Assembly: GCA_002721875.1 (NCBI GenBank)
Contig: PBLU01000022.1
Span: 20,232-27,613 of the forward strand
Source of the DNA: Chloroflexota bacterium
GTDB lineage: Bacteria > Chloroflexota > Dehalococcoidia > UBA1151 > TMED-70
Direction: 5' to 3'
DNA length: 7,382 nt
Each line of letters opens with the position of its first letter. Positions within the stretch are counted from its first letter, which is position 1. The notes beneath the pieces were generated by a model. It was not told where the DNA came from. It did not search any database and was given only the letters and a program-made list of their open reading frames with translations. Below are positions 1-7,382 of this stretch, piece by piece. The position numbers were made by a program, and so were the translations under genes.

Positions 1-392
1 CCACCTGCAATATCTTTATCCATTGCAAGCACACGGTAGAAACTTTCATTAGTAAAAACTATATCACTATCAATCCACAATTGATAATCATAGTTTAGTT
101 TGCCATCCCAAGGTAATTGATCAGGTCCTCGTAATACATTTGCACCTAAAACCTTACATCTAGCAAAGTTTACCATAGAACTATAGTCTTGTGCTATTTG
201 TATATTTGCTCCGTTCTGTACCAACTCAAAGCAGAGTGATACGAAATTCTTTAGAAAGATATATGAGACACCTCTGCCTGGTAAACAAAATACAATACTT
301 TTACCTTTGAGAAGTTCCTTTGTCTTTTCAATATCAAAAGCACCTTCTTTCGCAGTAGGTGATTTAGATACCACCTTAAATCCTTTAGCCAT
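1..392 (-). CDS. Glycosyltransferase, GT-A-like (N-terminal part, runs off left edge)
   Basis: This partial gene begins at the ATG at 390-392 and is open for 130 codons to the window edge, where it is cut off. A hydrophobic strand and loop at residues about 33-42 (SIVFCLPGRG) is followed by a helical stretch, an NFARCK segment near 80, LRGPD near 91, and a WIDSDIVF segment near 111-118. The last contains a DxD (DSD) motif, the metal and nucleotide-sugar binding signature of GT-A fold glycosyltransferases. Marine T4-like phages commonly carry proteins with this arrangement in their sugar-modification islands. The likely role is transfer of a sugar from a nucleotide-sugar donor to a glycan or other acceptor; donor and acceptor cannot be told. 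No clear Shine-Dalgarno sequence precedes the ATG, but a strong promoter lies just upstream (414-442), so the gene probably has its own transcript rather than depending only on the SGNH/carbamoyltransferase run. Confidence 0.75.
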   Translation of the reverse strand, partial: MAKGFKVVSKSPTAKEGAFDIEKTKELLKGKSIVFCLPGRGVSYIFLKNFVSLCFELVQNGANIQIAQDYSSMVNFARCKVLGANVLRGPDQLPWDGKLNYDYQLWIDSDIVFTNESFYRVLAMDKDIAG

Positions 393-413: not shown

Positions 414-442
414 ATTATAACACTTTATATAGCGTCTATCAA
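414..442 (-). promoter_or_regulatory. Strong sigma70-type promoter for the leftward glycosyltransferase gene
   Basis: On the minus strand TTGATA (442-437) is followed by a 17-base spacer and a perfect TATAAT (419-414). The spacer ends in TGT, giving an extended -10 (TGnTATAAT). The predicted start point is near 407, leaving a leader of about 15 bases before the ATG at 392. The promoter overlaps the last codons of the SGNH hydrolase gene. It resembles the host-type promoters used for phage early genes. The match is seen directly; activity is inferred. Confidence 0.75.
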
Positions 443-1069
443 CTCAATGATTTTATTTGCTATTGCTTTATGTCCTTCTGCACTTGGATGCCCACCATCT
501 AGACCATTTGCATAATAGTTTGGATTATCTCTTGTATGTTTAAATAAATCCATATGCGTCCACACTGGTTTATAATCTTTACACAAACTTCTCCAATATC
601 CTATTTTGTTACGATAGAATTTTTCTGGTCTTCTTAGTGTGGGTTCATAGTGATCTGCTATAATAGACACATATTTTTGACCAATGCTCTTGCAAAACGA
701 ATCAAATAAAAATATATTCTTCCACAAATTCTCATTACCTAATACATCATTGTATACTCTTGTATAGTAATATCTCTGTTTCATACTACTTACCCTTTGT
801 GGTGTCCACGATAGAGGATCTCCATTTTCAACATAATACTCTATTCTTGAAGTCACGGTATATTGTATGACAGCTATGTCTGCTTTATTATTCTGAAGGT
901 AATTAATTGAGTTTCTTACAATGCAATCATTACTGATGCCACATTCTGATAAGTTAGTGTGTTGAGATTTATAATGATTAGAGACAAGTGTGCTGAACCT
1001 TTCATTATGTCTGTCTTTTAATTCATCTCCCCATGTTATGCTACACCCACTAAAAAACAGTGACATCAT
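425..1069 (-). CDS. SGNH/GDSL-family hydrolase (esterase or acyltransferase), 214 aa
   Basis: The protein opens with FFSGCSITWGDEL, the block I motif of SGNH hydrolases; the nucleophile is Ser10 (numbered from the start chosen here). A GISND segment near 44-48 fits block II with its Gly and Asn, IQYTVTSRIEYY near 68-79 fits block III, and DGGHPSAEGH at 191-200 supplies the DxxH pair (Asp191, His194) of the catalytic site. The order and spacing suit an active enzyme of usual length for short phage members. Family members remove or move acyl groups on carbohydrates and lipids; here O-acetyl editing of a glycan is likely but unproven. The reading frame stays open to an ATG at 1093, but the ATG at 1067-1069 is preferred: TGAGGA lies six bases upstream and it places the GCS motif at the usual distance from the N terminus. 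The gene overlaps the end of the carbamoyltransferase gene by 20 bases, which suggests coupled translation. Confidence 0.82.
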   Translation of the reverse strand: MMSLFFSGCSITWGDELKDRHNERFSTLVSNHYKSQHTNLSECGISNDCIVRNSINYLQNNKADIAVIQYTVTSRIEYYVENGDPLSWTPQRVSSMKQRYYYTRVYNDVLGNENLWKNIFLFDSFCKSIGQKYVSIIADHYEPTLRRPEKFYRNKIGYWRSLCKDYKPVWTHMDLFKHTRDNPNYYANGLDGGHPSAEGHKAIANKIIELIDAI

Positions 1070-2426
1070 ACTTTTCCTCAAATAATTTTGCATCTTGAAT
1101 TGTATTTACCATGGGTTTTCCCTTTATATTCAGAGATGTATTCAATAATACAGGACATCCAGTACGTTCGTACCAGCACTCCAGTATGGGTCTTAGAATA
1201 CTGTCTGAGTCTTTTGGTACTGTTTGTACCCTAGCAGACCCATCGACGTGTATACAGGCAGGTATCGCCCTTGGTTGCTTACATTTATAAACGTAAGACA
1301 TATACCTTGATTGTTTAGGCATGTCAAAGTAATCTTGACAGTGCTCTTCAAGTATAGCAGGTGCGAAAGGTCTGAACAAATCTCTTTTCTTGATGTTGTT
1401 TACTAAGTCTTTTGTTTCTGCTTGTCTCGGATCCGCCAGAAGACTTCTATTGCCGAGAGCACGAGGACCAAACTCAGCACGACCATTCGCAACCCCCACG
1501 ACTCTTTTTTCGAGGAGTGCATCAACAACTCTCCTTGGATCACAGAACTTTTGTATATTATATCCTAGGTAGGGACTGAAGGCAACCTTCTTACCATATG
1601 CTAGACATGCTGCCCCCAGAGCACCCCCTGCGTCACCAGGACAAGGCATAATCCACATGTTATACATTTCCCTCAATCCAGTGTTTACGACACAGTTGAG
1701 AGCAACACCACCCCCATAGCAGATATTCTTACTGTATGTTGATGCTCTTGCAAATATATTGTTGAGTTCTAATTGTAGTATTCTCTCTGCACTCTTTGCG
1801 ATATCACACTTATCATAGTCACCCAATCTCGCTCCCTTGTGATTATTCTTATGTAACTGCCTTTCTACCACGTTCATATTCACAGGATTACCAAACGCTG
1901 CCATACCCATAAAGATATACTCTTCATCTAAAGGACGCAATCCCGCCCACTTTGTGAGTGCTGAGTACCATAAACCTATAGATTGCGGATACCACTGCGA
2001 CCATCTCTTTTTATATACTGCTTTTCCGTCTTTATATTCCGCAGTCCATATTGATGTAGTATCCCATTCTCCTATACTATCAACCACTACACATGCTGCT
2101 TGTTCAAACGGAGAGGTTTGAAACGCTGCTGCTGCATGAGACTTATGATGACTGTGATACTCAGTGGGTTGAAGTGATAGATTCCTAGGTCTATACCATG
2201 CCTTCTGACCTGCAAAGAACTGTCTAGTCCTCTTCAACCAAGGTCTCTCATAGAACGCTATCTTACCATCAGTAGAAATCAATAGTGCTGTAGACGCTGC
2301 TGTCAGATCAAGATGCTTGTCATGCTTTATCTTTGAGTATCTCTCTGAGTGTGCTGCATAACAAATTTTACCATTGTTGACTACAGCGACTGCTGCGTCA
2401 TGGAATCCTTCAGCGAATCCAATCAT
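1050..2426 (-). CDS. Carbamoyltransferase, NodU/CmcH/TobZ family, 458 aa
   Basis: Enzymes of this family move a carbamoyl group from carbamoyl phosphate, through an adenylated intermediate, onto a hydroxyl of a sugar or other acceptor. The Kae1-like N-terminal domain is clear: GFHDAAVAVV near 7-16, an HSERYSKIKHD segment near 26-36, the metal-binding HHKSHAA (His93 and His97) and VVVDSIGEWDT near 113-123 with Asp116. CYGGGVALN (237-245) and PCPGDAGGALGAA (261-273) close this domain. The C-terminal domain shows GRAEFGPRALGNRSLLADPR (315-334), FRPFAPAILEE and CPVLLNTSLNIKGKP (424-438). All main motifs are present, so it is probably active. It is shorter than NodU/CmcH proteins (usually about 540-600 aa), mostly through a compact middle and a clipped tail after NTIQDA. 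The start follows a good AGGGGA site, and the first codons overlap the upstream gene by 17 bases. Its G+C content is visibly higher than that of its upstream neighbours. Confidence 0.93.
   Translation of the reverse strand: MIGFAEGFHDAAVAVVNNGKICYAAHSERYSKIKHDKHLDLTAASTALLISTDGKIAFYERPWLKRTRQFFAGQKAWYRPRNLSLQPTEYHSHHKSHAAAAFQTSPFEQAACVVVDSIGEWDTTSIWTAEYKDGKAVYKKRWSQWYPQSIGLWYSALTKWAGLRPLDEEYIFMGMAAFGNPVNMNVVERQLHKNNHKGARLGDYDKCDIAKSAERILQLELNNIFARASTYSKNICYGGGVALNCVVNTGLREMYNMWIMPCPGDAGGALGAACLAYGKKVAFSPYLGYNIQKFCDPRRVVDALLEKRVVGVANGRAEFGPRALGNRSLLADPRQAETKDLVNNIKKRDLFRPFAPAILEEHCQDYFDMPKQSRYMSYVYKCKQPRAIPACIHVDGSARVQTVPKDSDSILRPILECWYERTGCPVLLNTSLNIKGKPMVNTIQDAKLFEEKYDVTVF
1075..1080 (-). 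promoter_or_regulatory. Ribosome-binding site deciding the SGNH hydrolase start
   Basis: The minus-strand sequence TGAGGA, with core GAGG at 1079-1076, sits six bases before the ATG at 1069. It lies inside the coding sequence of the upstream carbamoyltransferase. It also lies downstream of the alternative ATG at 1093, so it can only serve the shorter start. Confidence 0.65.
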
Positions 2427-3519
2427 ATATTCTTCCCCTTTTTCTCATATCTTTCATTTTTCTCATTGTAACATACTCTTTCGCCAATCGCTCATAATAT
2501 TTACGTTCGGGGTAATTACCAGGATGTGTAGCAGTTCGTGGTAGACTGTTATTATCAAAACCAAAGAATTCTTTGTAATCGTCTCGATCCATATTAAAAT
2601 AAATTGGTTCCAAACCTCTTTCTTGAAAATACCATTCAATTCTTCTTAGATTTTTTACGATATTATCAAAGTAATTCCATACTACGCTTTTGTCGATTTT
2701 TGATATATCTGAAATATCCTCAGTAGACATTCTTTCTAATACATGTTTATTACTAAATCTTTTTAATTTACTGGCAAGACAATCAATTATATCTTCTTTG
2801 TATGGAATGATATTTTTTCTTTTCTTAAATATTTTTAGAACATATTTTTCAAGATCACTTATATCTGACATATTCATATTCATACTACCTATCATTTTTC
2901 TACCCATCACATGAAAGGGTTCAATGATTATATCAGCATCTAACAACTCATCCAAACAAGGCAAAATATATTTTGTATTATTCTCCATATATGGATCTAA
3001 AAATGAATTTAGATAGTTTCTACATGGTGATACTGGAAAATACTTGAGCAAATCGCAAAAATATTTGTCAGTAAAGAATACTTCAACAGGATCTTTATCT
3101 TTCATCAAAGTATCTGGAGGTCTTCTTTCTTCAACACCTCCAAAGTACTTTTTCATCAAATCACCCCCTTTTTCAAGAGTATTAGAAGTAAGTTTGATTC
3201 TTAGTCCTAGCATTTCGTCTTCATCGGGATTATTCGATAAAGAATTTACAACCTCTAGGTATTCATGTAATTCTGGACATATTACACCTTTTGATTCTTG
3301 ACCAAACGTTGTTTTGGTTTTTACAGGTGTTTCTACCTCATTTTTTCCTTTTCTTACAACATAAGACTTCTCTATTCTTACACTGTAGTCATTTGGGTCA
3401 TGCGTCTGTTTATAAAAGAAATATGGGAACTTATTTTTTACATATGACTTTTTATTGATTTCTATAAGTTGCATCAAGTGCATTTTACCCATATTGGGTA
3501 TTGCCCAATAATTAATCAT
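2410..3519 (-). CDS. Protein of unknown function, 369 aa, in the glycan-modification operon
   Basis: I do not recognise this protein. It is hydrophilic, rich in Lys, Asp, Glu and Tyr, with no signal peptide or membrane segment, so it is probably cytoplasmic. Visible points are an N-terminal hydrophobic strand with a glycine turn (INYWAIPNMGKMHL), a central DADIIIEPFHVMGRKMIG stretch near 195-212, a helical segment before YFNMDRDDYKEFFGFD near 307-322, and a basic C terminus (MRKMKDMRKRG). The strand, turn and helix at the start and the Asp/Tyr-rich end are loosely like the sulfotransferase-type neighbours, but no RDPxRR motif is present, so kinship is only a guess. The frame is open back to a GTG at 3573, but that codon lacks a ribosome-binding site and would cover a separate 29-codon gene. 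The ATG pair at 3522/3519 directly after GAGG overlaps that gene's stop codon and is preferred; M29 at 3489 is another option. Confidence 0.7.
   Translation of the reverse strand: MINYWAIPNMGKMHLMQLIEINKKSYVKNKFPYFFYKQTHDPNDYSVRIEKSYVVRKGKNEVETPVKTKTTFGQESKGVICPELHEYLEVVNSLSNNPDEDEMLGLRIKLTSNTLEKGGDLMKKYFGGVEERRPPDTLMKDKDPVEVFFTDKYFCDLLKYFPVSPCRNYLNSFLDPYMENNTKYILPCLDELLDADIIIEPFHVMGRKMIGSMNMNMSDISDLEKYVLKIFKKRKNIIPYKEDIIDCLASKLKRFSNKHVLERMSTEDISDISKIDKSVVWNYFDNIVKNLRRIEWYFQERGLEPIYFNMDRDDYKEFFGFDNNSLPRTATHPGNYPERKYYERLAKEYVTMRKMKDMRKRGRIYDWIR
2434..2439 (-). promoter_or_regulatory. Ribosome-binding site of the carbamoyltransferase gene
   Basis: The minus-strand sequence AGGGGA, within a longer purine run, lies seven bases before the ATG at 2426 and inside the last codons of the upstream 369-aa gene. 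It supports this ATG even though the family motif GFHD then begins only seven residues in. Confidence 0.65.
3492..3510 (-). other. Small hairpin at the start of the 369-aa gene
   Basis: A perfect 7-bp stem, TATTGGG pairing with CCCAATA, with a 5-base loop, lies nine bases after the preferred ATG (3519) and just before the in-frame ATG at 3489. It could slow or position ribosomes near the start. It is too short and lacks the U-run needed for a terminator. Confidence 0.4.
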
Positions 3520-3601
3520 CATCCTCGTAAATGTAAGGATCTTGGCGACGCAATTTCCATAATTTATACTCACCTTTGATCCAATTCCAAAGTTTTTTCA
3601 T
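3512..3601 (-). CDS. Mini-protein, 29 aa, coupled to the sulfotransferase-like gene
   Basis: An ATG at 3601 overlaps the TGA of the upstream sulfotransferase-like gene in an ATGA junction, and the frame runs 29 codons to a TAA at 3512-3514. The product begins MKKLWNWIKGEY, has a strongly basic, Trp-rich amphipathic middle (three Trp; KLWKLRR), and ends DPYIYEDDD, an acidic tail of a style often seen at the ends of small marine phage proteins. Its stop overlaps the start region of the 369-aa gene, so it fits neatly between its neighbours. No Shine-Dalgarno is visible; translation would rely on coupling. Its role is unknown; a small binding partner or adaptor for an adjacent enzyme, or a peptide that keeps ribosomes loaded for the next gene, are possible. 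Confidence 0.6.
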   Translation of the reverse strand: MKKLWNWIKGEYKLWKLRRQDPYIYEDDD

Positions 3602-4479
3602 TTTTTCAACCATAACTGAGGTATATATCCAAATTCTTTTTGGAAGTTGTTATAAACCCATTCTAACTTATTTCTACCGTATTGTAAATCATTATTTGAC
3701 AAATCTTGCATATCTGAACTCCACTGATCTCTGAGACCTTTTATTTCTGGTCTTTTTGTTCCTCTCTCTGGAAAATATACATTATCATGCATTTTTTCAA
3801 TTTTCATGCCTATAAAGTCAGACAATCCACTTGGATCTTCCCATACTTCTTCCATAATAACAGGATACACTTTTTTGAAAGCGGATTTCCAATTATTCAA
3901 GTTTTTAATGTAATCTGGCACCAAAAAAGGTTCAGGGCGATCTAATTTTGATTTCCAATAAGAAATACTGTCAGGATACTGCTTTTTTATCATCTGCCAC
4001 TCAATATGATCTTCAGAACTCATTTTATACTTTTTATACTTCGCTGAAAGATGTGAATATGATCTACGCACAGGATCCCTCCAAATCATCGTAACTCTTA
4101 CATCAAATTCTTCTTCTAATGCAGGTGCTATCTCTTTGAGGAAGTAATCTGGTAGATCACCGTTGCTATTTGAGAAATCACAAACACCTCTATGACTATC
4201 CTTTACTTTACTCTTCATATACTGAATATACCATAGCAATGTGGTATTTTTTCTTATAAAATCAAACTTTCTATGTTTTTGTTTATTGTGCCATATGCTT
4301 TTCGCTAAAACTGGATTATATTTACTCTCATACAAGTAGTGTAACATATGAGGTTCTGTAATCGATTTATCACCTGATAAATTATGATGAACATAACCCA
4401 CTTTATCAAAAGTGTAGCATAATGGTTTTGTGGCAGACCAACCAACACCTGCGTTTATGTGAAGAATCGGTTTGGTCAT
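3598..4479 (-). CDS. Sulfotransferase-like protein 1, 293 aa (leftward paralogue)
   Basis: Sulfotransferases move sulfate from PAPS to a hydroxyl or amine. The N-terminal strand and loop ILHINAGVGWSATKPL (5-20) sits where the 5'-phosphosulfate loop is expected, though in altered form. CDFSNSNGDLP (100-110) occupies the place of the GE/GD-x-SP segment of carbohydrate sulfotransferases. VRVTMIWRDPVRRSYSHL (127-144) is a good match to the 3'-phosphate-binding strand and helix with the RDPxxR...S pattern. A conserved IMEEVWED (208-215) and FPERGTKRP follow. The closest relative in the window is the divergent gene at 4511-5431 (DFSNSN, LKEIAPALE, RDPVRRSYS and DQW-SD are all shared). The frame is open back to 4599, but the first 40 codons would be antisense to that gene; the ATG at 4479 matches the paralogue's N terminus. 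No ribosome-binding site is obvious. It heads the leftward run. Confidence 0.75.
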   Translation of the reverse strand: MTKPILHINAGVGWSATKPLCYTFDKVGYVHHNLSGDKSITEPHMLHYLYESKYNPVLAKSIWHNKQKHRKFDFIRKNTTLLWYIQYMKSKVKDSHRGVCDFSNSNGDLPDYFLKEIAPALEEEFDVRVTMIWRDPVRRSYSHLSAKYKKYKMSSEDHIEWQMIKKQYPDSISYWKSKLDRPEPFLVPDYIKNLNNWKSAFKKVYPVIMEEVWEDPSGLSDFIGMKIEKMHDNVYFPERGTKRPEIKGLRDQWSSDMQDLSNNDLQYGRNKLEWVYNNFQKEFGYIPQLWLKK

Positions 4480-4565
4480 AATATTTTTAATTTCAGGTAT
4501 ATATAAATTTATGAAGGTAAGAACTCCTCTTATAATTGGTGCAGGGACTGGTTGGTGTGCTACAA
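4428..4565. repeat. Imperfect inverted repeat: P-loop codons of the divergent paralogues
   Basis: TTGTGGCAGACCAACCA at 4428-4444 is the reverse complement, with two mismatches, of TGGTTGGTGTGCTACAA at 4549-4565. Both arms encode the modified phosphosulfate loop of the two divergent sulfotransferase-like genes. The repeat is therefore a trace of inverted duplication rather than a regulatory site. Confidence 0.55.
4480..4510. promoter_or_regulatory. 31-bp spacer between divergent sulfotransferase-like genes
   Basis: This very AT-rich spacer separates two divergent starts (4479 on minus, 4511 on plus). A perfect palindrome ATAAATTTAT (4503-4512) creates TATAAAT on the plus strand (4502-4508) and CATAAAT on the minus strand (4513-4507), both close to the T4-type late -10 element TATAAATA. 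The minus-strand copy would start RNA about 20 bases before the leftward ATG, which is plausible. The plus-strand copy is too near the ATG at 4511 unless that message is leaderless. I see no good TTGACA/TATAAT pair on either strand. Promoter assignment is inference. Confidence 0.4.
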
Positions 4566-5431
4566 GTCCGCTTTTTATGACTTTGCAGTGCTTCCACAAG
4601 TGTGCTCATGTTGGTTTACAAAAAGAGGATCATCTTTTATACCATGTATACACTGATGATGCTTGGAAGTGGAGAAAACCCAGTTATGAGAAAGTTATAA
4701 GATCTTCTATGAGTCCAGTTTCTAAAGAGGAGTGGGGAAGACAGTGTAAATATGCTTTTCATCAAAATCTTGACGAAATTCATGAATTATTCCAAAAACC
4801 GACGTTAGAAACTTATATTAAGTATTATACAAGACATTATCAGAGAGTAAAACACGAATATCAGTATGTTGCTGATTTTTCTAACAGTAATTCTGAATTA
4901 CCAGTTAGTTTTTTACAAGAAATCGCACCAGAACTCAAAAAACACTTTGATATCAAGGTTTTAATAATTTTTAGAGATCCAGTTCGCAGATCGTACAGCG
5001 AAATGTCTGCAATCTACCAAAAATTCAAAAATATTCGTGAAAAATACCCAACATCTAAAGATTATTGGAGAAGTTATCTTAAGATGAAATATTATAGCAT
5101 GAATTTCGAGTATGTCAAGAGGATAAAGTATTATAAGTCGGTTTTTAGTACGTTACCCATCGTTTCTGAGGATCTTTGGGGTGGAAAAAACGATTCTTTA
5201 GCAAAACTTAGTAATTTTTTACAATATGACATCAAAAAACTATGGCCAAATTGCTATTATCCTGAAATGGGAACAAAAACACCTGTTCTTGAAAGAAAAT
5301 GGAATCTTAGTGACCAGTGGGGATCTGATTTAGAGGATTTAACTGATGAAGACTTGAGTTTTGGTCGAAAATACCTTGAAAAATACTATGATGAGTGGTA
5401 TAATGAGTTTGGAACAACTCCTTGGGGGTGA
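4511..5431 (+). CDS. Sulfotransferase-like protein 2, 306 aa (first rightward paralogue)
   Basis: The order of motifs follows PAPS-dependent sulfotransferases: LIIGAGTGWCATSPL (7-21) in the place of the phosphosulfate loop, ADFSNSNSELP (121-131), then DIKVLIIFRDPVRRSYSEMS (147-166) as the 3'-phosphate-binding strand and helix. SEDLWGG (219-225) and FLQYDIKKLWPNCYYPEMG correspond to the family's late E-D-L/FL segment. The protein is about the usual length for short bacterial members, has no signal peptide or membrane span, and should be cytoplasmic. It pairs most closely with the leftward gene at 3598-4479. The frame is open from 4472, but the ATG at 4511 is preferred because it aligns with the other copies and keeps the spacer free. 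A weak AGG lies 13 bases upstream. The TGA overlaps the next gene's ATG by one base. Confidence 0.78.
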   Translation: MKVRTPLIIGAGTGWCATSPLFMTLQCFHKCAHVGLQKEDHLLYHVYTDDAWKWRKPSYEKVIRSSMSPVSKEEWGRQCKYAFHQNLDEIHELFQKPTLETYIKYYTRHYQRVKHEYQYVADFSNSNSELPVSFLQEIAPELKKHFDIKVLIIFRDPVRRSYSEMSAIYQKFKNIREKYPTSKDYWRSYLKMKYYSMNFEYVKRIKYYKSVFSTLPIVSEDLWGGKNDSLAKLSNFLQYDIKKLWPNCYYPEMGTKTPVLERKWNLSDQWGSDLEDLTDEDLSFGRKYLEKYYDEWYNEFGTTPWG

Positions 5432-6345
5432 TGATTGAGCAAAATATCACTCCTAGACACCCAAAAATGCTACTAATAGCTGGATGGCGTTGGGCAGCGA
5501 CCTCGCCATTGATCTATACTCTACAAAGATACTCAAAATATGCACATTTTGGTTATACAAAGCGGTTCACATCTAGTTTAAATACCGATATCTACGAACG
5601 TGTATGCAATAATACATGGGAAAACTATAAAAGTTATGAACCATCCAGTCATCGAATGAATCTCACTGTTGATCTTGAGCCTCTTCATGATTTTTCTACC
5701 ACACATTTTACTCGACTCATGGCAGGTGACCATACTATATCAAAGCAAATTGATTTTTTTCATGCACTTCATGATCATGTCCTTACTAAAGGTTATAAGT
5801 CTGTGGGTATCATGTTGACAGATGAACAAAAATATAGTGAATTACTCATGTCTGAGTTTGATATCAAGGTTCTTTGGATTGCAAGAGATCCTGTTCGTCG
5901 TGCCTTTTCAGAATTTCTTCACCACTCTAAAATAAATTGCGATTTCTATCGTTTAAACGAAAAAATGTGCTTATTCTTTCGTTTTCATGTTATTGATTAT
6001 ATAAAAAAGATCAATAAATTAAATAAAAAATTTGGTGAGGATAAAACTCATATAGTTGTTATGGAAGAACTATGGGAAGGAGATGGCACTGCTAAAAAAG
6101 AACTTTCAGAGTTCTTAGACCACCCTATTACAGACCTTTGGAAAAACCTTTACTGTCCTGATAGAGGACACCATGTAAAATACGACAAAGATGTCCCTTG
6201 TCAAGCATATGGACAAGACTTATTTGAACTTACACCTGATTTATACAATAATATAAAAAAACAATATCAACATATCTACGATGATTGGGAGAATCATTTT
6301 GGTTCTCTTCCTCTACATTGGGGACAACCAGTAGCGTATTCATGA
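5431..6345 (+). CDS. Sulfotransferase-like protein 3, 304 aa, with altered motifs
   Basis: This copy keeps the strand, turn and helix AGWRWAATSPLIYTLQR (17-33), the NLTVDLEPLHDFS segment (77-89), DIKVLWIARDPVRRAFS (144-160) and the C-terminal VMEELWEGDGTAKKEL region (210-225). It is closest to the next gene, with long near-identical stretches. Two differences stand out. The loop reads GWRW where the other copies read G-x-G-W, and the GDYNYRSN-type segment before the PAPS-binding strand is shortened to GIMLTDEQ, losing the conserved Asp and Asn. Activity may therefore be reduced, or specificity changed. The start is the ATG at 5431 in a TGATG junction with the upstream gene, next to a run of five G; an upstream in-frame TTG at 5422 is unlikely. 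An ATG at 5467 is a further option that would match the N termini of the paralogues more tightly. Confidence 0.72.
   Translation: MIEQNITPRHPKMLLIAGWRWAATSPLIYTLQRYSKYAHFGYTKRFTSSLNTDIYERVCNNTWENYKSYEPSSHRMNLTVDLEPLHDFSTTHFTRLMAGDHTISKQIDFFHALHDHVLTKGYKSVGIMLTDEQKYSELLMSEFDIKVLWIARDPVRRAFSEFLHHSKINCDFYRLNEKMCLFFRFHVIDYIKKINKLNKKFGEDKTHIVVMEELWEGDGTAKKELSEFLDHPITDLWKNLYCPDRGHHVKYDKDVPCQAYGQDLFELTPDLYNNIKKQYQHIYDDWENHFGSLPLHWGQPVAYS
5783..5804 (+). repeat. 22-bp direct repeat shared with 6682-6703
   Basis: A stretch of 22 identical bases encoding TKGYKSV occurs here in copy 3 and again at 6682-6703 in copy 4. It is one of the conserved blocks left by tandem duplication of these genes. Confidence 0.7.
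5839..5864 (+). repeat. 26-bp direct repeat shared with 6759-6784
   Basis: Twenty-six identical bases encode ELLMSEFDI just before the RDPxRR motif in copy 3; the same string is found at 6759-6784 in copy 4. Differences either side are mostly at third codon positions, so the protein is kept while the DNA drifts. Confidence 0.75.
6061..6086 (+). repeat. 26-bp direct repeat shared with 6984-7009
   Basis: Twenty-six identical bases encode MEELWEGDG in copy 3 and recur at 6984-7009 in copy 4, 923 bp away. The whole following segment stays similar to the ends of both genes. These identical blocks would allow recombination that deletes or adds a gene copy. Confidence 0.75.
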
Positions 6346-7268
6346 AACCAAAAATGCTGATATGGGGTGGGTTTGGTTGGTGTGCAAGTTCTCCTCTCGT
6401 ATACACACTTCAAAGAAATGCGAAGTATGCTCATTTTGGTTATACAAAAGTATGGAACTATTTTAAAGAAGAAAATAAAGGTATGTTGGATTTTTACCAA
6501 GTTTTTGATGGAACTTGGGAAAACTATAAGAGTCATGAAGAACCATCTCATCGATTGAATCTTACAGTTGATCTTGAACCTCTTCGTGATTTCTCTCTTT
6601 CACACCTTAAAAAACTTATGGAGAGTGAAAGGACAGAAAAAAACTTGATAGATTTTTATCACGCACTTTATGATCATGTTATTACTAAAGGTTATAAGTC
6701 TGTAGGTGATTATAACTACCGTAGTAATTGTGTCAAAGGTGATGAAAAAAAATATAACGAATTACTCATGTCTGAGTTTGATATTAAGGTTCTTGCAATT
6801 GTAAGAGATCCTATTCGTCGTACTTTTTCACGCTATCTTAATAAAAAGCGTATGGCAGAAACTGAAAATCTGCTTCTCAGTAATCTTAATTGGAAGGGAA
6901 CTACGATGAAGATTACTGATTATACGAAGAAGATAAATGCACTCTATGAAACATTTGGTAGAGATAGAACTCATGTTACTGTCATGGAAGAACTATGGGA
7001 AGGAGATGGTACTGCCAAGAAAGAACTCTCACAGTTCCTAGACCACCCGATTACAAATCTGTGGAAAAACCTTTATGCTCCAGACAGAGGTCACCTTGTA
7101 GAGTATGATAAGGATGTACCCTGTCAGGCATATGGACAGAACTTAGCAGAACTTACACCTGAGATGTATTATCAGTATCGTAAGGAGAATGATCACATAT
7201 ATCAAGCATGGAAACAGGAATTTGGATCACTTCCTTTACATTGGGGAGAACCAATTGAATATAGTTGA
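6342..7268 (+). CDS. Sulfotransferase-like protein 4, 308 aa (last rightward paralogue)
   Basis: The N terminus MLIWGGFGWCASSPL (5-19) carries the modified phosphosulfate loop, and DIKVLAIVRDPIRRTFSRYL (147-166) carries the 3'-phosphate-binding motif. GDYNYRSN (122-129) resembles the GD-x-SP-x-Y segment of carbohydrate sulfotransferases and is intact here, unlike in the previous copy. NLTVDLEPL (73-81), VMEELWEGDGTAKKELSQFL (214-233) and a C-terminal FGSLPLHWG (294-302) are shared with that copy, which marks a tandem duplication. The preferred ATG at 6342 overlaps the upstream TGA as ATGA, indicating coupled translation; the longer frame from a TTG at 6285 lies within the upstream gene and is rejected. 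The stop codon lies inside the -35 box of the promoter that follows. PAPS would have to come from the host or from a gene outside the window. Confidence 0.78.
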   Translation: MKPKMLIWGGFGWCASSPLVYTLQRNAKYAHFGYTKVWNYFKEENKGMLDFYQVFDGTWENYKSHEEPSHRLNLTVDLEPLRDFSLSHLKKLMESERTEKNLIDFYHALYDHVITKGYKSVGDYNYRSNCVKGDEKKYNELLMSEFDIKVLAIVRDPIRRTFSRYLNKKRMAETENLLLSNLNWKGTTMKITDYTKKINALYETFGRDRTHVTVMEELWEGDGTAKKELSQFLDHPITNLWKNLYAPDRGHLVEYDKDVPCQAYGQNLAELTPEMYYQYRKENDHIYQAWKQEFGSLPLHWGEPIEYS

Positions 7269-7293
7269 CAAGTATATGAAGAGGTGTTATACT
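7265..7293 (+). promoter_or_regulatory. Consensus sigma70-type promoter facing right, out of the cassette
   Basis: TTGACA (7265-7270) is a perfect -35 box, followed by a 17-base spacer and TATACT (7288-7293). The spacer ends GTGT, giving an extended -10 of TGnTATACT. The predicted RNA start is near 7300. The -35 box contains the TGA stop of the last sulfotransferase-like gene. It should drive the gene beyond the right edge. The sequence match is excellent; activity is inferred. Confidence 0.82.
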
Positions 7294-7298
7294 ATATT

Positions 7299-7382
7299 TG
7301 TTGGACGCAACATGGGAGTGACTGAATAAACTTACTGGCAACTGCTGGTTAAGGTGATGAGACACAGGTGGTGCTGCTACGA
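7299..7382 (+). other. Probable structured 5' leader RNA (cut by right edge)
   Basis: No convincing coding start is seen in the bases after the promoter. The expected transcript would open with a 5-bp hairpin, TGTTG pairing with CAACA around a GACG loop (7299-7312), at or next to the 5' end. A second possible stem, ACTGGC with GCTGGT around AACT (7334-7349), includes two G-U pairs. A G-rich segment with repeated GGTG follows (7353-7372). Only a five-codon micro-ORF (ATG at 7312) and an unclosed eight-codon frame (ATG at 7357) are present. A leader of at least 80 bases is unusually long for this compact genome and could be a regulatory RNA, but I cannot name a class. Confidence 0.4.

Follow-up and report, generated by a model that had tools for sequence, protein, structure and literature searches.

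What purpose is served by four sulfotransferase-like genes packed into 3.7 kb of DNA filed under a Chloroflexota bacterium? The window analysed here, the whole stretch of 7,382 nucleotides from contig PBLU01000022.1, was 99.5% identical (39 mismatches/7382) to IMG/VR contig 3300020467_000015, designated G001; G and L numbers denote the contigs and loci of this analysis. A sequence-only reading had described four paralogues, one leftward and three rightward, with copies 1 and 2 head to head over 31 bp, and these coordinates were confirmed (Table 1). The motifs DFSNSN, EIAP-L, RDPVRRSYS and DQW-SD, given as common to copies 1 and 2, are present in both. Copies 2 and 3 overlap by 1 base and copies 3 and 4 by 4 bases, and a fifth sulfotransferase copy is located ca. 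2.4 kb past copy 4 on the same 38,186-bp contig, outside the window. The array is real, under purifying selection and larger than originally reported. With moderate confidence we propose that it is a variable cassette array of sulfotransferases dependent on 3′-phosphoadenosine 5′-phosphosulfate (PAPS), carried by an uncultured T4-like, cyanophage-related myovirus and modifying a host-surface glycan, with cassette exchange shifting the position or substrate of sulfation.

Scanning IMG/VR with copy 2 gave 19 loci and scanning with copy 4 gave 11 loci, on partly shared contigs. The family set of 113 members was taken from the loci of both scans and from Marine virus AG-345-D19. Protein identity was 36% between copies 1 and 2 (E 2e-54), 59% between copies 3 and 4 (E 2e-130), which agrees with the claim that the latter are the closer pair, and 24-29% in the four cross pairs (E 8e-12 to 2e-24). 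From these values the copies share a common descent far beyond chance. A Foldseek search, which the sequence-only reading had named as a check, found the sulfotransferase fold for copy 2, and the top matches were glycan enzymes, heparan-sulfate 3-O- and N-sulfotransferases. By profile comparison the family was related to the known sulfotransferases 3rnl (E 3.9e-8) and 1t8t (E 6e-6), and PF00685 was matched by 17 of 84 family members at E ≤ 0.01. The sulfotransferase-like identity is thus borne out by the fold, the profiles and the Pfam matches of relatives. The fold matches 6xkg, 1t8t and 1nst (heparan-sulfate enzymes) and the bacterial 3rnl share only 14-19% identity with the family, and the phage genes differ from them in being arrayed and in having no conserved basic residue in the 5′ loop. 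Judged from its model, copy 2 may work like the heparan-sulfate 3-O-/N-sulfotransferase family, to which it is likened without being filed as a member.

Cytosolic-type (SULT) sulfotransferases share this fold as well, and there are phage carbamoyltransferases that act on DNA bases. With a carbamoyltransferase adjoining the array, the targets could also be small molecules or nucleic acid, both types of enzyme serving a metabolite or DNA-modification route. We consider this very unlikely since the best fold matches are glycan enzymes and no DNA-modification set was recognised among the mapped island genes; methylase-like genes elsewhere in G010 and G005 are unrelated.

In PAPS sulfotransferases the Arg and Ser of an R-x-P-x-x-R-x-x-S stretch bind the 3′-phosphate of PAPS, and the glycine-rich 5′-phosphosulfate loop carries a basic residue. 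The former stretch is kept in the family (R155 and P157 in 82/82, R160 in 80/82 and S163 in 73/82 aligned sequences) and aligns with 3rnl and 1t8t. Conserved positions of the 5′ loop are G12 (77/82), A17 (76/82) and P20 (79/82), and K38 (77/82) lies beyond the loop. In copy 3 the near-invariant Asp-122 loop is missing and dN/dS is higher (0.42) than in the other three copies; to judge by its sequence, this copy is perhaps an altered or failing enzyme.

The sequence-only reading had attributed copies 1 and 2 to a local inverted duplication. The tree contained 106 of the 113 family members, excluding the four G001 copies, which are near-identical to those of the window, and three pieces shorter than 230 aa (L003, L014, L032). 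Approximately unbiased (AU) tests on copy pairs were done on 56 of the 106 rows with LG+G4, and the test of the wider copy-1 and copy-2 groups on the full set. The group containing copy 2 had 20 members, that of copy 1 had 12 and that of copies 3 and 4 had 17. Although within the window copies 1 and 2 resemble each other more than any other copy, they belong to separate orthologue groups, each having orthologues at 80-90% in other contigs, and their forced joining was rejected (AU p 3e-62, 374 log units), leaving the local inverted duplication with a negligible probability. On sequence grounds copies 1 and 2 are old paralogues that had been misdated. The wider groups as sister groups were not rejected (AU p 0.235), and an ancient duplication may lie behind both. 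For copies 3 and 4, the proposed tandem duplication was compatible with the data when their L002 orthologues were included (AU p 0.70, with a higher likelihood) and was rejected without these orthologues (p 1e-5); the copies plus orthologues were not resolved as one clade in the 106-row tree. Copies 3 and 4 may therefore stem from a tandem duplication, one older than the split from the close relative L002.

Values of dN/dS were 0.25 and 0.25 for copy 1, 0.21 and 0.16 for copy 2 and 0.24 for copy 4. Open frames span 280-330 codons and dN/dS ranged from 0.16 to 0.42 in six of six pairs, which indicates purifying selection. This argues against the array being a reservoir of laterally gained genes that do little at present, ballast or decaying, whose copy number changes neutrally. 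Such a reservoir, which we regard as unlikely, would account for the missing near-invariant residues in copies 1 and 3, the high dN/dS of copy 3 and a broken sulfotransferase copy in L014, and a passage in Sullivan et al. 2010 (PMC3037559) raises the question of stuffer DNA for cyanophage lipopolysaccharide (LPS) genes.

The composition of the array differed between related loci around a fixed element. The anchor, a gene of the copy-2 group, was directed away from the carbamoyltransferase in all 19 loci holding both (taking window and G001 as one; L009 resembles G007 and L015 resembles G012). By hand tally, 0-7 further sulfotransferases in either orientation occur between the two: 0 in L002, L003 and G004; 1 in the window; 2 in G012, L011 and L015; 3 in L008, L012 and L017; 4 in G005, G007 and L009; 5 in L004, L014 and L018; 6 in G003 and G010; and 7 in G015. 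The count for L014 includes a fragment, and G010 carries a second anchor-group gene. The locus map omits loci that repeat a contig (L001, L005-L007, L010, L013, L016, L019-L022, L025), and four of the eight fetched contigs (G005, G007, G010, G015) are not whole. Loci L054-L074 were mapped separately and without group assignment; L054, L055 and L056 are consistent with the pattern, with 4, 4 and 2 genes in the gap. Related contigs contain up to 8 sulfotransferase copies, and L055 has nine open-frame hits. Group C genes, to which copies 3 and 4 belong, lie leftward within the gap in G003, G005 and L004, but in the window and L002 they point rightward and follow the anchor; hence genes switch side and strand. 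L002 and L003, which are 85-90% identical to the window, are without copy 1; the identity extends 16 bp into the 3′ end of copy 1 and then breaks, which favours loss of copy 1 in these loci. G004 and G005 share 97% of gp6 residues and have 0 versus 4 sulfotransferases in the gap. In total, 48 sulfotransferase, 37 SGNH-like and 18 cl2 genes were counted in 11 sequences (8 contigs and 3 AG-345-D19 records). No description of such a multi-copy, shuffling sulfotransferase arrangement was found in the literature searched; its parts are of known kinds.

Baseplate genes of the T4-like type elsewhere on this contig support the phage origin assumed by the sequence-only reading. Leftward of the array follow cl2, the carbamoyltransferase, the SGNH-like gene, cl11, gp25, gp6, a 2758-aa gp7-like gene and further tail genes. 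The gp25-gp6-gp7-gp8 order with related proteins, a trait of T4-like cyanophages, is present here; gp7 and gp8 were named by position and the P-SSM2 gene order. The gp6 protein is 63% identical to that of AG-345-D19 and ca. 50% to those of cyanophages. Over its length, cl11 shares 78% identity with the T4-GC 102 protein of S-SSM7 and 76% with its P-SSM2 counterpart; in both phages this protein is likewise encoded near gp25. In the text available, Sullivan et al. 2010 describe a cyanophage hot spot between gp46 and gp25 (PMC3037559), and the T4-GC 102-like cl11 next to gp25 places the array in that region. No sulfotransferase annotation is present in the 20 kb upstream of gp25 in P-SSM2, S-SSM7 and S-SRM01, which hold mostly small unknown genes there. 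Relatives of copy 2 (E 1e-5) or copy 4 (E 0.01) were found by tblastn in 3 of 50,697 phage records, all from AG-345-D19. This single-cell virus looks like a cyanophage because one of its records carries psbA; among 28 records, the contigs being fragments, psbA was otherwise matched only in part, at one end of G024, and not in G001.

The proposal builds on features that are directly supported: the homology, the fold of copy 2, the position, the variation in copy number and strand, and the purifying selection. The array would occupy a plastic site upstream of gp25, with a fixed anchor of the copy-2 type facing away from an operon of carbamoyltransferase, SGNH-like, glycosyltransferase-like, gp25, gp6 and gp7 genes. 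Other sulfotransferases would be gained, lost, moved or inverted between anchor and operon, or set behind the anchor like copies 3 and 4. Each enzyme would use host PAPS to sulfate a hydroxyl or amine of a sugar, and together with the carbamoyltransferase and SGNH-like proteins would modify a surface glycan, most likely the LPS or capsule of the infected host, in order to block superinfection or mask receptors. Cassette exchange would then alter which position or sugar receives sulfate. A glycan target is suggested by the fold ranking, the carbamoyltransferase, the cytidylyltransferase and aldolase genes of G010, and the family member that directly precedes a cytidylyltransferase gene of the same cluster in AG-345-D19. 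Diversified substrates or sulfation positions, as suggested by the sequence-only reading, are plausible, and the pattern suggests that these viruses may vary surface chemistry gene by gene. Beyond this, we tentatively suggest a combinatorial sulfation locus, in which one fixed and up to seven exchangeable sulfotransferases in either orientation would rewrite, from one phage to the next, how host-surface (or virion) glycans are sulfated. It would be much like O-antigen seroconversion, here with sulfate alongside carbamoyl and acyl-type groups.

The host surface is preferred over the virion because earlier work on marine myophages took their glycan genes to remodel surfaces (PMC7029224 and PMC9602691, as far as their available text goes) and because late-promoter-like motifs are absent from the window. 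On the contig, gp25 and three more tail genes are preceded at 20-35 bp by CTAAATA or ATAAATA, and no exact match lies in the window (motif counts without shuffle control), hinting at a separate timing of the array. Both arguments are weak, and a quarter of the weight is therefore kept by the alternative that the enzymes decorate their own virion: produced together with tail fibres or baseplate proteins, they would sulfate glycans or side chains on these, and variation would alter adhesion. Copy 1, cl2, the carbamoyltransferase, the SGNH-like gene and cl11 are indeed co-oriented with and directly upstream of gp25-gp6-gp7, whereas copies 2-4 read the opposite way.

Several other observations weigh against host-glycan sulfation by a variable array. 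The position beside baseplate genes also fits virion decoration. In the Foldseek ranking the tyrosylprotein sulfotransferase 9wwe (E 8.5e-5), which likewise matches the fold, is almost level with the sugar enzymes, making a protein target possible. Copies 1 and 2 had no match in the Pfam search and copies 3 and 4 only sub-threshold ones, copy 3 scoring better with O-FucT than with sulfotransferase models. The glycine-rich 5′ loop has no conserved Lys or Arg in the 82-sequence alignment, and copies 1 and 3, which deviate at near-invariant positions, may be inactive. Adenosine 5′-phosphosulfate (APS) kinase was found in 0 of 28 records, so PAPS must be supplied by the host, and the window's host is itself one we infer from relatives. 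Over 16.8 kb the DNA identity of G004 and G005 is just 79%, hence they are not near-identical siblings. Most loci came from searches with copy 2, which makes its presence in them partly a matter of construction. The anchor is no universal rule: an anchor-group gene was not seen in the loci found with copy 4 (L023, L024, L026-L029), and many distant loci hold a lone sulfotransferase (L057-L066 and L070-L073, of 40, are without the other island families, except that L058 has two others).

Sulfotransferase-fold genes are also present in cultured cyanophages and OM43-phage contigs (S-SCSM1, P-SSM7). The available text of PMC10580990 names a sulfotransferase gene in S-SRM01 and describes no array. 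Copy 2 matched the S-SCSM1 sulfotransferase in fold (E 4e-5, 13% identity), and sulfotransferases of the S-SCSM1 and P-SSM7 type were not found by tblastn with copy 2 or copy 4 at the above thresholds. The host recognition cluster of pelagimyophages (PMC7029224, in the part available) is likewise a hypervariable island with glycan genes in the structural region and was read as changing the host surface against co-infection. It sits elsewhere, from VrlC to gp14, with glycosyltransferases, and the word sulfotransferase is absent from the main text of that paper. Here, no other gene family of the variable island next to the baseplate genes is as multiplied as the sulfotransferases, which fall into orthologue groups, include an anchor and show gains and losses. 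Whether viruses sulfate bacterial surfaces can be put to the test on this example, and such a fast-changing locus could decide which ocean phages infect the same cell.

Table 1. Coordinates of genes and other elements in the window.
Feature	Position	Strand	Description
cl11, truncated by window edge	3-392	-	phrog_1574 E 1.3e-49; T4-GC 102-like
SGNH/GDSL-like protein, start uncertain	425-1093	-	sub-threshold PF00657 E 0.0023
NodU/Nol-like carbamoyltransferase	1050-2426	-	PF16861 E 1.5e-53, PF02543 E 5e-33, phrog_1601 E 1.4e-92
cl2, unnamed family adjoining array	2410-3522	-	also multiplied in relatives
Copy 1	3598-4479	-	293 aa, sulfotransferase-fold protein, group B; without near-invariant Lys-38
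Spacer, divergent copies 1/2	4480-4510		31 bp between their starts
Copy 2	4511-5431	+	306 aa, anchor sulfotransferase, group A; fixed divergent orientation to carbamoyltransferase
Copy 3	5431-6345	+	304 aa, sulfotransferase-fold family member, group C; without Asp-122 loop
Copy 4	6342-7268	+	308 aa, sulfotransferase-fold family member, group C; PF00685 E 0.0076, below cut-off
Sigma-70-like promoter, consensus TTGACA-17-TATACT	7265-7293	+	0 mismatches
manA RNA (RF01745), 5′ part, truncated by window edge	7299-7382	+	74.9 bits, cut-off 55.2

The cl2 model had a predicted local distance difference test score (pLDDT) of 89. Its structure search gave no convincing fold match, only a weak likeness to P-loop proteins and the Stf0 sulfotransferase. 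Cytidylyltransferase, SIS-like and HAD-like genes occur in L035 (3080-9002) and L030 (5913-8734), in the latter, which belongs to AG-345-D19, immediately after a sulfotransferase-family gene, and from their sequences a route to cytidine monophosphate (CMP)-sugars is possible. Two tandem genes of another family in L033 (521-2033), with a PGSGWAK loop near the start, look sulfotransferase-like by eye and have no Pfam match. L062 contains a lone distant family member (7986-8909, 39% to copy 2) among nrdA-/nrdB-like, phosphomannomutase-like and transaldolase-like genes.

At the right edge, a manA RNA follows copy 4 behind a perfect promoter match; promoter-like matches are common in the region (32 versus 16.6 expected from shuffles). 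The RNA is complete in the contig (188.6 bits, L034 14975-15160) and occurs in 11 of the 25 scanned loci, or 11 of 20 distinct records, truncated at the contig end in L008 and L041. It starts 30-31 bases past the sulfotransferase stop in L034, L008, L023 and L041 and lies ca. 200 bases ahead of a sulfotransferase frame in L011 and L045. According to the available text of PMC2864571 (Weinberg et al. 2010) and PMC9964418, manA occurs in cyanophages and marine samples, and its function is unproved. The full-length match and the cyanophage connection agree with that description, whereas the RNA here flanks a sulfotransferase array and the accessible part of PMC2864571 names mannose/fructose, nucleotide, chaperone and photosynthesis genes. 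Past the manA RNA, L034 (15475-18179) continues with three consecutive SGNH-like genes and the fifth sulfotransferase.

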